Part shown: piece after piece, positions 6,043 through 44,600 of the stretch
Layout: each line of letters begins with the position of its first letter
How positions within the stretch are numbered: the first letter of the stretch is position 1
NCBI GenBank assembly: GCA_034096865.1
Contig: JAWQFJ010017343.1
Coordinates: forward strand, 139,001 to 203,000
From: Theodoxus fluviatilis
Lineage: Eukaryota; Mollusca; Gastropoda; Cycloneritida; Neritidae
DNA length: 64,000 nt
Direction: 5' to 3'
Notes under the pieces: model-generated
Seen by the model: the letters and a program-made list of their open reading frames with translations, nothing else
Told to the model about the DNA's origin: nothing
Databases searched by the model: none
Program-made: the position numbers and the translations under genes

Positions 6043-6135
6043 CTCTACAGCGCTGACATGAGAATCTTGCTCCCTTCACACCGGGTCTCTACAGCGCTGA
6101 CACGAGATGCTTGCTCCCTTCACACCGGGTCTCTG
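6043..6135. repeat. 44-bp tandem duplication in the presumed 3' UTR of copy A
   Basis: Two copies of a 44-bp unit (containing CAGCGCTGACA and TTGCTCCCTTCACACCGGGT) plus the start of a third, just past the copy A stop codon. Confidence 0.8.
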
Positions 6136-6167
6136 CAGTGATGGAGAGGTGGCTGGGAGAAGCTCCC

Positions 6168-6301
6168 CTAGAAGTGGTGTTTCTGTTGCTCCCAGAGCTC
6201 TTCAATGATATCATCGATGTCATGGGACACAAACCTTGCTCCGAAGGACTCCACCACGCCAGCAGCAGTGTCTTCAAAGCTCTTCAGTTTCACTTGGTCA
6301 T
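6168..6301 (-). CDS. DPP3: DPP3 copy A exon 19 (last coding exon)
   Basis: 134 nt after a CTTCAG acceptor, DDQVKLKSFEDTAAGVVESF, then [13 protein letters not shown] and TAG. Same length and phase as copy B 41536-41669. Confidence 0.95.
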
Positions 6302-8401
6302 CTGAAGCATGACATTGAGCAAATCCACCATAAATGTCACGGCTGAAATATGTACCCTACAAAACAGTTTTGGACTCAGGACAGAAGGTGAGACATGCAT
6401 GACGATTTTGAACATTCATGTACATTTGCTTACACACACACATACACATGCAAATGAACATACACACAGACACACACACAGACACACACACACAGACACA
6501 CACATACATACAAACACACACACATACATGCAAACACATGCACACATGCAAACACACACGCATACACCAAATACAAACACATACATGCAAACACACACAC
6601 ATACATGCAACACACATGCACAAATGCAAACACACACGCATACAACCAATACAATGCATACATGCAAACACACACACATACATGCAAACACACACACATA
6701 CATGCACACACACACACATGCACACACACGCACATGCACACACACACACACACATACATTTGTGTCCCATCCCTTTGCTGAGTTACCCCACATATTCATT
6801 TTTATTGTTTCTTTCAGCTGAAAAAAGCACAAAGATGGGACCATTTATTCAATGGGTGTGATGCTGTACAAACCTTCAATGTACCTGTGATACTGTACAA
6901 ACCTTCAATGTAGGTGTGATGCTGTACAAACCTTCAATGTATGTGTGATGCTGAACAAACCTTCAATGTAGGTGTGATGTTGTACAAACCTTCAATGTAG
7001 GTGTGACGCTGTACAAACCTTCCATGTAGGTGTGATGTTGTACAAACCTTCAATGTAGGTGTGATGCTGTACAAACCTTCAATGTAGGTGTGATGCTGTA
7101 CAAACCTTCAATGTAGGTGTGATGCTGTACAAACCTTCAATGTAGGTGTGATGCTGTACAAACCTTCAATGTAGGTGTGATGCTGTACAAACCTTCAATG
7201 TATGTGTGATGCTGAACAAACCTTCAATGTTGAAAACAGGAGGCCGGTGTTGGACTCGTAGGCGAGTAGAAAAGAAGTACTGGAGACCTTTGTCCAACTC
7301 CAAAATTTTTTTATTCCAGAGCTTTCGGGGCCAAGTAGGCTCCTTCGTCAGTGAATTAAAAGGCTATGTGCGGACGTGTCTGCCCTAGTATCCGTGCATT
7401 CCTTTCTTTTCCTAGGACAGACACGTTCGCACATAGCCTTTCAATTCACTGACGAAGGAGCCTACTTGGCCCCGAAAGCTCTGGAATAAAAAAATTTTGG
7501 AGTTGGACAAAGGTCTCCAGTACTTCTTTTCTATAAACCTTCAATGTAGGTGTGATGTTGTACAAACCTTCAATGTAGGTGTGATGCTGAACAAACCTTC
7601 AATGTAGGTGTGATGCTGTACAAACCTTCAATGTAGGTGTGATGCGGTACAAACCTTCAATGTAGGTGTGATGCGGTACAAACCTTCAATGTAGGTGTGA
7701 CGCTGTACAAACCTTCAATGTACGTGTGATGCTGTACAAACCTTCAATGTAGGTGTGATACTGTACAAACCTTCAATGTAGGTGTGATGTTGTACAAACC
7801 TTCAATGTAGGTGTGATGTTGTACAAACCTTCAATGTAGGTGTGATGCTGTACAAACCTTCAATGTACGTGTAATGCTGTACAAACCTTCAATGTAGGTG
7901 TGATGCTGTACAAACCTTCAATATAGGTGTGATGCTGTACAAACCTTCAATGTATGTGCGATGCTGTACAAACCTTCAATGTAGGTGTGATGCTGTACAA
8001 ACCTTCAATGTAGGTGTGATGTTGTACAAACCTTCAATGTAGGTGTGATGTTGTACAAACCTTCAATGTAGGTGTGATGCTGTACAAACCTTCCATGCAT
8101 GTGTGATGCTGTACAAACCTTCAATGTATGTGTGATGCTGTACAAACCTTCAATGTATGTGTGATGCTGTACAAACCTTTAATGTATGTGTGATGCAGTA
8201 CAAACCTTCAATGTAGGTGTGATGCTGAACAAACATCTTCCGAGGCAATCGTCGCATCAGCACAGTCTGGCGCAACCTCATGAAGTGAGGCTTCTCCTCC
8301 TCTGTGAAGGTGGTGTACTTCTCAAACAGCCTCTTCCCTGCAGCATAGTCCCCAGTGGACCTGTACACCTGCAATACAGAGAAGAAGAAGAAGAAGAAGA
8401 A

Positions 8402-8491
<90 letters not shown>

Positions 8492-11400
8492 GAAGAAGAA
8501 GAAGAAGAAGAAGAAGAAGAAGAAGAAGAAGAAGAAGAAGAAGAAGAAGAAGAAGAAGAAAGAAGAAAGGAGAAAGAAGAAGAAGAAGAAGAAGAAGAAG
8601 AAGAAGAAGAAGAAGAAGAAGAAGAAGAAGAAGAAGAAGAAGAAGAAGAAGAAGAAGAAGAAGAAGAAGAAGAAGAAGAAAGATGAAAGGAAAAAGAAGA
8701 AGAAAGAAGAAGAAAAAAATGGGAGAAGAAAGACGAAGGAGAAGAAAAAGAAAGGAGAAAGAGGAAAGAGGAAAAAAGAAAGAAAGAAAGAAGGAAGAGA
8801 GAAGAAAGACAAAAGAAGACAGAAGAAAGGAAGAAAGAAAAGAAAGAAGAATTAAAAGAAGAAAGAAGAAGAAAGATGGATAAAGAAGGAGAAAGAATAA
8901 GAGAGCAGAAGAAAGAAGAAAGGAGAAAGAAGATGAAAGGAAAAAAAGATGGGAGAAGAAAGAAAAAAGAAAGAATACGAAAGGAGAAGAAAGAAAAAAG
9001 AAAGAATACGAAAGGAGAAAGGAGAAAAAAGAAGAAAAAGTAAGAAGAAAGAAGAAAGAAAAAAGAAAAAGAAAAAGAGAGAAGAAGAAGAGAGAAGGAG
9101 AGAGAAGAAGAGAGAAGAAGAATGGCAAGGTAGAGCAAATTCCTGCAATTTGTTGTTCAATGAATCCAACTATGCCTCTTGGGCAATCTTTCCATCCTAA
9201 ATTTCCTAGAAGGCATCAACACTGCTTTGAAGACATTTGATGCATGAGGGCATGAACTCAATATCTATTCCCCAGCCAATGTATGAGACCTCCAACAACC
9301 AATACCTGAAGCAGACTTACCTGGAGCTTTCTGAGGAAGTTGCCGATGGCTGGCTTGCCCACAGACACAATCTTGTTTCTGTCCATGGTCAGTAGGATGT
9401 CGGGTTCTCCATCATCCCCCTCAGTTTCCTCCAGTGTCACAAAGTCCTCGCCAGCCTCGATCAGCACCCGCAGAATGGCAAACAGGCCTGGAGCATGGAC
9501 CTAAGGTAAGACAAAAGGTTCAAGCTCATACAAGGGAGTCATTGGGAACACTACAAATGTTTGCTGAATTTGTGTGTGCATGCAGGGGGTGGGGATGGAT
9601 GGGGGTGGGGGTGGATGGGGGTGGGGGTGGATGGGGGTAGGGATGAGGGGTGGAATAATCACTCTCAAAGCATTTAGAACAAAGATGGGACCTGCAACAA
9701 AGGCATGCTAAGAGAAATAGTTTGGATTTTTTTAAACACTTTAGATGAGAAACCATGGTATAACATTAACAAGGTAAGTGGATGCATCTGGAAAAATGCC
9801 TATTGACGGTGCATTTCATGCATTGCGATATATGCACGGTCCACAACATCCCACCTCAATAGGGCAAAACCTGGAGGACCACACTTATGAATCACACCTT
9901 GCTGAGGGGTTTCAAAAGCCACATGTAAATTCTTCAAAAGCCAATATGGCAGTCGAGGTGTGTTCTTCCTCCTTTTGTTATCCTTGTCATGTAAAATTCC
10001 CTGTGAAAAAACAAAATAGTAGCCCCTAAAAAAGAAGTTAAGCTCTTAAAGCCGGGCACAAATTCATCAACGCCACAAAAAACAGAATAAAAGAATTAAA
10101 CAATTCTATCCTCCAAAATGAGAGTGCATGTTTTCATGTGTGTGTTCATAAAAAGCTTACAGATACGTAGATCTTAATCATCATAATATTTCCTATGAAA
10201 AACAAACAACTTTTCCTGAGATAACATCCATTCCTGATAGGTATTAAGTCCTGAGTACTGATGACTGGGTTCAGAAAAAAAAATCAAGAGGCCCAAGTCC
10301 ACAGGGCAAAATATTTGGCCCCTTGGGCAGACTGCAGTGCATGTAAAACTGAAGGTAGAGAAGCAGAGATTCAAAACAGGAGTGGCCACAGTGCACCCAT
10401 AATTACCTGGCCCCACAGCCCACTCTGGGGGGAGTAGTGCTGCAGGTTGACCATTCCGTATCTGGCCACACTCAACCAGAGAGCATACACGATGTCATCT
10501 GCATCCTGGCCCTTGTACCCAAACACTCTGAAACATGCATTGGGCCAATAGCAACTTCTCCATGAATACATGCATCTTCGACCAGTGATCAGTAAAAAGT
10601 ATCATCAATGTAACGTGACCACCATTCACAATGGGACAAACATTGGGTAACATCTTTCTTACTACACTTTGAGCCATTGTACTTCTCTTCGGACACTCTC
10701 CAATCTGCAATAAGTATACTTCTATTGCTCCACTAATGAGCTCTACTTTGCAGGTCTTCATATTTTAAGCAAGATCATGGAAGGGAATGGAAGTTCCTGT
10801 AAACACTATTACTTGTGTTTTGCTTTGGCATGTCACATACATTGAACCAATGCTAACACAGTGACACGGGGGGTTGGTGCATTGTAAAGGTTTGTCAAGT
10901 ATACAGGGGGTATATAGGGGGTAAATGTGTGTGGTTTGAGCATCCATCAATGGGTGAAAATGTTGCAATATAAAAAAGAGCACCTTTACCATTACTCATT
11001 CACACATAGAAAGAATTACGCACATGGACAATCATGATATAAGGTCGCAGCAGGTAAGGAATTAACAGGATGCTTAAAAAAACAACTAATTTCTTCTGTC
11101 CCAGAGATGGAACAATGGCACTGCGCCTTGCACATCTTCAAACCCCAAAGCATGCTCGCCCATCTCTGCCTGTCAAAAGACAGGGTTTCAAAGAGAGTAG
11201 AGATTGTGGGGCTAACCATGCAAGACACAAGGGGAGAGCACCAGGGGGTGGGCTGCCAGGAACTGGTGATCTCTATGTTTAGACAGGATGGAAGGGATGG
11301 GATAAATCATGGTTTATATATAGACTCTGCAGGTATTTTTTAACACCTGAAAACCTGTGAATTGAAATACAGCACTTCCCATCTTGATTTGCCAAGTCAT

Positions 11401-41669: not shown

Positions 41670-44600
41670 CTGGAACAAGAGGAAAACTTTCCGAGTCAGG
41701 TTCAGGTGACCCCAGTAAGGGATTGATAAAGCTCATGAATATTCAGGGGTACAGCATAAAGCTGTTTGAGCCCCAGCTCTGAGTGATGGGTTGCAATGTA
41801 AACCTTGACTCTGAATCAAGGAGCATAGCCACTTTAACACATAAGTATCAATGACTATGCAATGTAAACCTTGACTCTGAATCAAGGAGCACAGCCACTT
41901 TAACACATAAGTATCAATGACTATGCAATGTAAACCTTGACTCTGAATCAAGGAGCACAGCCACTTTAACACATAAGTATCAATGACTATGCAATGTAAA
42001 CCTTGACTCTGAATCAAGGAGCACAGCCACTTTAACACATAAGTATCAATGACTATGCAATGTAAACCTTGACTCTGAATCAAGGAGCACAGCCACTTTA
42101 ACACATAAGTATCAATGACTATGCAATGTAAACCTTGACTCTGAATCAAGGAGCATAGCCACTTTAACACACAAGTATCAATAACTATGTTGCAGAACTT
42201 GATGGTAGAAAAAGTTGTGTCTTCAAATGTGACACACTAGAAGTGATGATGGCTATGAGTGGATGAGTTAATTTTTCAGTGTAAACTTAAGAACTTGTGA
42301 GGAAAAATTAAATATGGACCATGAATCCTCAAGACTGTGGTGAGACTGCCCCTCTTACCTTCGATGTATGTGTGGTGCTGCACGAACATCTTGCGTGGCA
42401 CCAGTCGACTCAGCACAATCTGGCGCATCCTGAGGAAGTGAGGCTTCTCCTCCTCTGTGAAGGTGATGTACTTCTCAAACAGCCTCTTCCCTCCCTCACC
42501 ATCACCGGTTGATCTGTATGCCTGAAGCAATAAAAAGGCTCCGCATGAATTCTTCCAATGAATTAATGACTGAAAACAAACCTCTAACGCTATAAAATCA
42601 TCAATTTACTTTCCTTCCTGTGCATATTGTTACAGAGAATGTGGAAATACAGAAGACAATGAATTCATCATAAGGATGGTTGGATGGAGTTTTAAGACCC
42701 ATCAACCTTCATAGACTCTTTAAGGCAACTGATCACGAAGAACCATGAGAGTTGATTAGAATAAAAGCAAATCAAGTCACAGGAGAATTGGTTAGAACAA
42801 AAGCAGGTAGTACTGATTTTCCTATTTGCCTCTTAGGAAACAAGTAGGAAGACACGGTGGGTCAATTCTTACCCCCAACCCACAGGGGGTTTAATGGTGA
42901 GGAAATCAGTCACCAATACAACAGATCATTATGACTAACCTGCTTTCAAAATGCATTAGCATGTAAAAGATCTGTGCAATATATGCTGATGTATAGGTAG
43001 TCTCAGAACTTCAGCATAAGAAATCATTTTTTTAATGTTTGCTGCACTACAAAAGTATGTGCACTGATCCAGGGTCTGACAAGCGTTGCCCAGGGTAACC
43101 AAATGTTCTCTTCAGGCAAGGAAAAGTCAATCTAGACCTGCCCCAACTGGCAACCAAATTTTCCTCCAATTTTATTTTGAGTCAAAGCTCACAATGGCTT
43201 GAAAACTGTCATCTCTTGCATTACCAGCAAACTTAGTGATACTGTATACATGTCCAAGACACAACTCATGAACATTTTTAGAGATACTGTTACTTATTTG
43301 ACTGGTGTGATTACTATGGTGGGGCAAAACTTTTTTCAAGCCAGTGGATTCAGTTTTCCTGTAGGTGAATTTTTTCAATCTATTTGACCAAACAGGCAAC
43401 TGAATTTGAGAAGTTGTGTTGGACCCTGTGATCATGAATGCATTTTAAAATTGAGAAAAGTACGAGTAAAAAGAAAGCTATTTGTATGCAGTGATGACAG
43501 ATGAAATAGACATTTCATCTGTGGGTGACATACATGTAACTACAGAAGTGTAGGGCAGCATTACCTGAATCCCGCACACAAACTTGCCAATCGCTGGCCT
43601 GCCCACTGACTCCATCTTGGTCCTGTCCATGGTCAGCAGGAAGTCTGGCTTTCCATCCTCCCCCGTGACTTCCTTCACTGTCACAAAGTCCTCGCCAGTC
43701 TCCATCAGCACTCGCAGAATGGCAAAAAAGCCTGGAGCGTGCGCCTGTCCAAGACATAACTGTCAGTTTCTGCTCTCCATAGCTATGAAAACATAACTCC
43801 CTGTACTGGTCAACTTGTTTGACTTTTGTCTTGAGCACTACTTGAAGACTTTACAGCAAAAAAAAAGAGATACATATTCAGATCCTAAACTGACTCATGA
43901 ACTTTTCCCAGTTTCAATTATGCATATTCTGTAAGAACATGAAAATTCCTATATTTTTCTCTTTAAGATCATGATGACAGCAACACACTGATAGTGATAG
44001 CATTGATAGTGAAAAGGCTTCATATCTTTAGAATTATGAAGTTATAGTACAAGAGCTCATTTACTGGAAAGGACGGGAGGAACCAATGAGGTGAAGTAGA
44101 AGCAGCAGAAAAGAAGGATTAGGAGGAAGAGGAGAAGGAACAGATGGACAAAAGGGGTGGGAATTGGGGGTGGGGGGAGGGGGAGAGGGGGAGGGGGGGG
44201 GAGGGGGAGGGGGGAGGGGGGAGGGGGGAGGGGGGAGGGGGAGGGGGAGGGGGGAGGGGGGAGGAGGATAAGAGGAAACTGGCAACAGGTGGTCAGTAAG
44301 AATGAACTAGACACTAAGCTGAAAGTGCAGCAAAAGAGGATGGTAAAGAGAAAGGCATGACATTTTGACAGACATACTTGTCCCCACTTTCCGGTCTGTG
44401 GCGAGTAGTGCTGCAGAGCCAGCACGCCAAAGCGAACGGCTGCCAGCCACAATGCATAGATCGCATCATCTGCATCCTGCCCCTTGTGTCCGAACACACT
44501 GCACAATACAGTGATCCAGCGTTAGTCACCATTACAATTTGATCATAAGCTTTCTCTCCAGTATATTGAAGGAATCAATGTCTTAATCTTTCAGAGCAAA

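Follow-up and report, generated by a model that had tools for sequence, protein, structure and literature searches.

Locus and gene models

The window, meaning the whole stretch of DNA analysed, comprises 64 kb of the 965-Mb Theodoxus fluviatilis assembly (contig JAWQFJ010017343.1, positions 139001–203000). On its minus strand lies DPP3 copy A, for which the gene model gives 18 coding exons that encode 732 amino acids without internal stops. The translation matches Pfam PF03571 (Peptidase_M49; E 7.4e-189, residues 148–711) and contains HELLGHG; HELLGH is the motif of DPP3 and of peptidase family M49, and the protein is assigned to this family by both the Pfam match and the motif. The best protein matches of the window are molluscan DPP3 sequences at about 53% identity (among the 120 best of 1564 matches). 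Junctions in the gene models were chosen using a general donor matrix, and exons 1 and 12 of copy A and one acceptor of copy B were set by hand. The features of copy A referred to below are as follows (a slash marks a splice junction).

8206–8368, minus strand: coding exon 17, 163 nt, ending TAC ATT GAA G
6168–6301, minus strand: last coding exon, exon 18, 134 nt including the stop codon; acceptor ATGCTTCAG/ATGACC; codes for the 44 C-terminal residues
17452–17600, minus strand: exon 7, with an inferred ordinary donor AAG/GTTTGT, the 9-mer being identical to the array donors

The initial annotation had placed the same junction between exons 18 and 19; the junction stands, and in the 18-exon model these are exons 17 and 18. 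When exon 17 is joined to exon 18 at the first donor, the C-terminal protein sequence matches that of mollusc DPP3 (for example that of Aplysia). An alternative acceptor, TTTTGTAG/GGTACA, worked through by hand, would lead to a stop at codon 7 after GAA, and ATGCTTCAG/ATGACC was preferred.

Across the whole assembly, a protein search gave 50 matches at E ≤ 0.001, all on this contig (61 of the 66 candidates were scored). The exon matches are ordered as expected of four DPP3 genes in tandem, all on the same strand, between about 90.9 and 235 kb of the contig: Z at about 91–125 kb, followed by A, then B, then C at about 213–235 kb. Z and C were read over 9 kb each, covering their 3′ parts. In a tree of 23 sequences copy A has copy B as its sister, and the grouping of the pair with gastropods is weakly supported (0.48). 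The two form a diverged pair, with 446 of 636 aligned residues identical, dN 0.19 and dS 0.98 by NG86, and dN 0.17 and dS 1.63 by YN00 (dN/dS about 0.2 and about 0.1, respectively). Copy A looks functional, as judged from its intact modelled frame, the PF03571 match and the low dN/dS relative to copy B.

Structure of the array

Exon 17 ends in a 29-nt stretch (GTTTGTTCAGCATCACACCTACATTGAAG) that runs without a gap into 35 intronic units of 29 nt each (8205–6874), the exon unit at 8234–8206 directly adjoining unit 1. The array was parsed as follows.

8206–8234, minus strand: unit 0, the source of the array; last 29 nt of exon 17, encoding F-V-Q-H-H-T-Y-I-E
7539–8205, minus strand: units 1–23, 29 nt each; donor 1 at 8205
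7222–7538, minus strand: insert-bearing segment of 317 bp that interrupts the array between units 23 and 24
6874–7221, minus strand: units 24–35 (12 units); 13 further AAG/GTTTGT donors at 7221–6873
6845–6873, minus strand: degenerate unit 36, the putative site of the lost original donor, CATTGAATAAATGG

Tandem Repeats Finder reported 29-bp arrays at 6848–7230 and 7535–8234 with 93–94% matches. The minisatellite grown from the exon end that the initial annotation described is thus present; the unit itself corresponds to the final 29 nt of the exon and not, as had been proposed, to the last 28 nt plus one base. The exon end agrees with the array consensus at 28 of 29 positions and with unit 22 at all 29. 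Eleven of the 35 intronic units are exact copies of the consensus, and across the 965-Mb assembly the 29-mer of the consensus has 11 exact copies, every one in the copy A array. Elsewhere in the window, on both strands, the best match to the consensus is 24/29, where the homologous exon ends in copy B. The window holds 51 merged tandem arrays, 20 of them at 150 bp or less from modelled exons of A or B, and the copy A array is the sole one that crosses an exon end. An 18-bp double repeat sits entirely within exon 7 of copy A.

The segment that interrupts the array (7538–7222) carries a foldback element with arms at 7267–7388 and 7412–7533 (122 nt, 98% complementary), for which a hairpin of −237 kcal/mol was predicted (z −30.8). 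The element is dispersed, with at least 80 matches (40 of 678 candidates scored). The segment is bordered on both sides by ACATTGAAGGTTT (13 bp), which is compatible with a target-site duplication, the same sequence also belonging to the 29-nt unit. An Rfam search of the window returned no family at gathering score. At a lax threshold, matches in the insert (mir-1972, 39.3/90 bits; mir-2004, 34/100 bits; three weaker) fell far under the cut-offs and may be an effect of the long hairpin. A suspected hammerhead-like motif in the insert was unsupported by Rfam.

Paralogues and origin of the present donor

The intron that follows GAA G is in phase 1 and is common to Z, A, B and C, and the preceding exon ends at GAAG in all four. 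The donors at this intron are GTATGG in Z, GTTTGT in A, GTAAGA in B and GTGAGC in C, and the intron measures 503, 1904, 689 and 384 nt, respectively.

42359–42521, minus strand: homologous exon of copy B; donor GAAG/GTAAGA, array of this unit absent

The copy B junction is therefore as originally annotated. Tandem Repeats Finder reported no repeat in this intron of Z and C. The last intron of copy B has an unrelated 66-bp minisatellite of six copies (41792–42189), 123 bp from the last exon. The 29-nt exon end agrees with the array consensus at 28 positions in A, 26 in C, 25 in Z and 24 in B, and FVQHHT[YF][IM]E is encoded there in all four paralogues, with similar sequences in molluscs; judged by these alignments, the coding sequence of the exon end is ancestral. 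An outgroup check, which had been proposed at the outset, was made with the paralogues of the same genome, and 3/3 (Z, B and C) have the intron but no such array. Because Z, B and C retain both the intron and the ancestral exon end in an array-free state, the array is, on this comparison, private to copy A within the cluster and derived from the exon, rather than the exon from the array.

Two known modes of intron evolution do not describe the junction. Intron gain by tandem duplication is not seen, Z, B and C all having the phase-1 intron at this position; nor is intron sliding (a near intron pair with a shift of <32 nt), all four exons ending GAAG. A, Z and C all carry the hexamer GTTTGT within the exon, where B has GTTCGT. 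The 29-nt unit starts with GTTTGT, and a unit placed behind GAAG reads AAG/GTTTGT. U1 pairing energies were computed against the 5′ end of U1. For the exonic GTTTGT of A, which follows GAT, predicted pairing is negligible (−0.3 kcal/mol); after GAAG, at the present A donor, it is −5.5 kcal/mol, and the values for the donors of Z, B and C are −6.2, −9.5 and −9.6 kcal/mol.

As GTTTGT is already exonic in A, Z and C, the first tandem duplication would have created the present donor at its own junction. This first step would have been a tandem duplication of the 29 nt at the end of exon 17, reaching just to the splice junction. Its breakpoints would have shared GT (the exonic GT and the GT of the donor), a possible microhomology that would leave GT at the new junction. 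With the first junction in use, the exon length and the protein would have remained unaltered because the duplication itself placed GT there. The old donor would have been displaced downstream as a redundant copy and later lost, the array would have grown to 35 intronic units by unequal exchange or slippage, and the dispersed foldback element would then have inserted into it. The sequence CATTGAATAAATGG at the end of the array could have arisen from GAAGGTAA if GG was deleted, a derivation that is suggestive, with the TAA as its sole support. The suggestion in the initial annotation that the donor was apparently made by the repeat and the original lost is borne out by the ordinary donors of the paralogues, the exonic GTTTGT and the far end of the array, which reads CATTGAATAAATGG with no GT. 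As an account of the origin of the array the mechanism is well supported by these sequence comparisons. It suggests a route by which a donor may be replaced without a change in the protein, namely a tandem duplication that ends at a splice junction: a GT of the exon takes over as donor, the old donor decays and the repeat array stays as a trace.

Candidate donors and predicted products

From the end of exon 17 to the acceptor there are exactly 36 identical AAG/GTTTGT sites, 23 before the insert and 13 after it; the site at the insert boundary (7538) reads GTTTAT. Outside the array the motif occurs three times on the same strand and once on the opposite strand of the 64 kb. Each of the 36 array sites is a plausible 5′ splice site, the same 9-mer ending exon 7 by the gene model; at the same place copy B has CAG/GTGTGT (gene model). 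Scored with a leave-one-out matrix, AAG/GTTTGT ranks 14th–15th from weakest among 32 donors, a rank that is slightly flattered because the matrix used for each of its two occurrences still included the other.

Donor 1 gives a predicted product of 732 amino acids. Donor 2 gives 701 amino acids with the tail GLYCITHTLKMTK, and donors 3–36 (34/34) as well as intron retention give one and the same protein of 706 amino acids with the tail GLYCITHTLKVCTASHIH. The frame is thus kept by the first donor only, the other 35 giving truncated products, as had been noted from the first. The TGA within the repeat that had been described for donor 3 is likewise met from all of donors 3–36. For donor 2 the early stop holds, but it follows three codons of the last exon (M-T-K) rather than the four stated initially. 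The possibility that the array itself is coding was dismissed, as 29 is not divisible by 3 and donors 3–36 reach the same TGA. The splicing noise or length-dependent control suggested initially stands as a hypothesis, the sequence giving only the product that each donor would yield.

The distance from the stop codon to the splice junction increases from 60 nt for donor 5 to 1276 nt for donor 36, and exceeds 55 nt for 32 of the 36 donors. Nonsense-mediated decay follows a 50–55-nt rule, which may not apply in this animal; if it does, donors 5–36 would be decay targets. Exon definition would favour donor 1, with which the exon measures 163 nt compared with up to 1495 nt with later donors. Donor 1 is also the most intron-distal of the 36. 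Where donors compete, SRSF1 promotes intron-proximal and hnRNP A1 intron-distal sites, according to an extract of PMC5585400.

The locus presents a natural 36-way competition of identical candidate 5′ splice sites, spaced in 29-nt steps except at one insert. With 36 identical sites and three array-free paralogues as controls, the position rules of 5′ splice-site choice would be readable from RNA-seq data, and since each of the 35 later donors truncates the protein, a wrong choice would be visible in the transcript.

Variation among the units

Variants were analysed in the intronic units 1–35 only, excluding both unit 0 in the exon and the degenerate unit 36. The 35 differences from the consensus found in these units correspond to 15 distinct variants. 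None of the 15 falls in the donor 9-mer, which accounts for 9 of the 29 positions (binomial p 0.0038; with base-specific rates about 5.7 expected, p 0.0033), and each of the four variants that recur in at least three units is synonymous when read in the frame of the exon, compared with one of the remaining 11 (permutation p 0.0077; one-sided Mann–Whitney p 0.014; of 87 possible changes, 14 would be synonymous), these p values being post hoc and the variants, which spread by duplication, not being independent. FVQHHTYIE is still encoded by 24 of the 35 units.

Turnover of the array was simulated both in growth and at equilibrium, and only runs with 11–19 distinct variants were kept. The growth models (no filter, exon filter, exon as template and donor selection) covered twelve settings. 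In the nine settings without donor selection, the probability of a variant-free donor 9-mer was 0 to 0.013, and the combination of at least three synonymous multi-copy variants, no other multi-copy variants and a variant-free 9-mer did not occur. With donor selection the share of kept runs with this combination was at most 0.0025. Four or more synonymous multi-copy variants and no others, as observed, arose in no kept growth run in any of the twelve settings, even when the 9-mer was ignored. The equilibrium runs kept per setting, of 120, numbered 48, 78, 71, 50, 7 and 0, and the edge model was uninformative. No model tried, at equilibrium or in growth, gave both an invariant 9-mer and a synonymous bias. 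Together, the donor 9-mer, free of variants, and the multi-copy variants, all synonymous, suggest constraint, on post hoc evidence and small numbers; the pattern reads as a real oddity with few events behind it.

Interpretation of the additional donors

We consider it probable, from the sequence evidence above, that the duplicated exon end made the donor, that donor 1 is now used in most transcripts and that the other 35 sites are tolerated decoys. Donor 1 most likely serves most transcripts because it alone yields the 732-residue protein; the case for it is one of frame and protein conservation only, the 36 identical 9-mers giving it no advantage as a site. Use of a decoy today would give the truncated 706-residue product (701 residues from donor 2), and such products would be largely exposed to nonsense-mediated decay if the 50–55-nt rule applies. 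Tolerated decoys leave unexplained why none of the 15 variants lies in the donor 9-mer when 5.7 would be expected, and the new A donor, which pairs with U1 more weakly than the B and C donors, also counts against this reading.

The absence of variants from the donor 9-mer, which was rare in growth simulations without donor selection, speaks instead for a functional array. Repeated U1 sites could recruit U1 to a weak donor, or the length of the array could set the share of product with the C-terminal 44 residues as a splicing rheostat, and with donors 3–36 sharing one product the outcome would be graded in amount only. We regard such a function as unlikely, however: the argument is post hoc and draws on few events in units that are related by duplication, so that the events are not independent, and donor selection alone failed to give the synonymous bias in simulations. 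Quite unlikely is the fuller proposal, drawn from the variant-free donor 9-mer and the four synonymous multi-copy variants, that the array is a maintained platform of 36 equal donors under coding and donor constraint, whose length tunes retention of the C-terminal 44 residues in DPP3-A.

Were the array damaging, the decoys would capture many transcripts and copy A would be heading towards a pseudogene in the four-gene cluster. Only one of the 36 donors yields the full protein, the 50–55-nt rule would send donors 5–36 to decay, and the three paralogues could provide backup. This outcome is nevertheless distinctly improbable, given a modelled frame that is intact over 18 exons and the dN/dS of about 0.2 (NG86) or 0.1 (YN00) against copy B; that none of the 36 sites is eroded also argues against harmful decoys, although the insert-boundary site at 7538 does read GTTTAT. 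Long arrays are prone to mis-sizing, but an assembly artefact in unit number or exon contiguity is very improbable in view of the position-specific variants borne by the units, the single insert with its flanking repeat and the gapless passage of the exon into unit 1.

Comparison with known systems

Unlike the 12-bp repeat unit of human IFI6, extra copies of which add whole codons, the unit of copy A is 29 bp long, breaks the frame and was copied from the end of a coding exon, and in copy A the original donor has been lost. A minisatellite supplying multiple splice donors was reportedly described in human IFI6/6-16 by Turri et al. in 1995. In the portion of PMC4526556 consulted, two downstream repeat units of IFI6 serve as donors and three mRNA species result; the likeness lies in the use of minisatellite units as alternative splice donors, which in copy A are candidate donors recognized in the DNA. 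It was fair to call the copy A arrangement unusual, yet this gene provides a published precedent. A minisatellite as a source of donors is thus already known from IFI6; what is new is a frame-breaking unit that derives from coding sequence, the loss of the old donor and the presence of 36 equal candidate donors.

Tandem duplication of coding sequence has been linked to intron gain or sliding in Drosophila near intron pairs (PMC2891723, in part) and in potato RdRp (PMC4974935, in part). In these accounts, so far as the excerpts go, tandem-duplicated exon sequence provides a new splice site, as in copy A; unlike them, copy A gains no intron, the intron keeps its position relative to the protein, and an old intron has received a new donor at the same place. 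The VNTR in intron 6 of hTERT, with 38-bp units, is likened to the copy A array as an intronic minisatellite whose repeat number affects splicing (PMC3948165, from a partial text).

Neighbouring repeats and a Patella isoform

The next-closest array to that of copy A is a 743-bp TCT/TCA microsatellite (8380–9122) that starts 12 positions upstream of exon 17 and forms a pyrimidine-rich stretch at its acceptor, so that the 163-nt exon lies between two tandem arrays. A 44-bp repeat of 2.2 copies (6043–6138) begins 30 bp 3′ of the copy A stop codon, probably in the 3′ untranslated region. The predicted isoform X2 of Patella vulgata DPP3 diverges from the family just after MFVQHNTT, near the same exon junction, and has another C-terminus, which may reflect an alternative splice choice or an annotation artefact.
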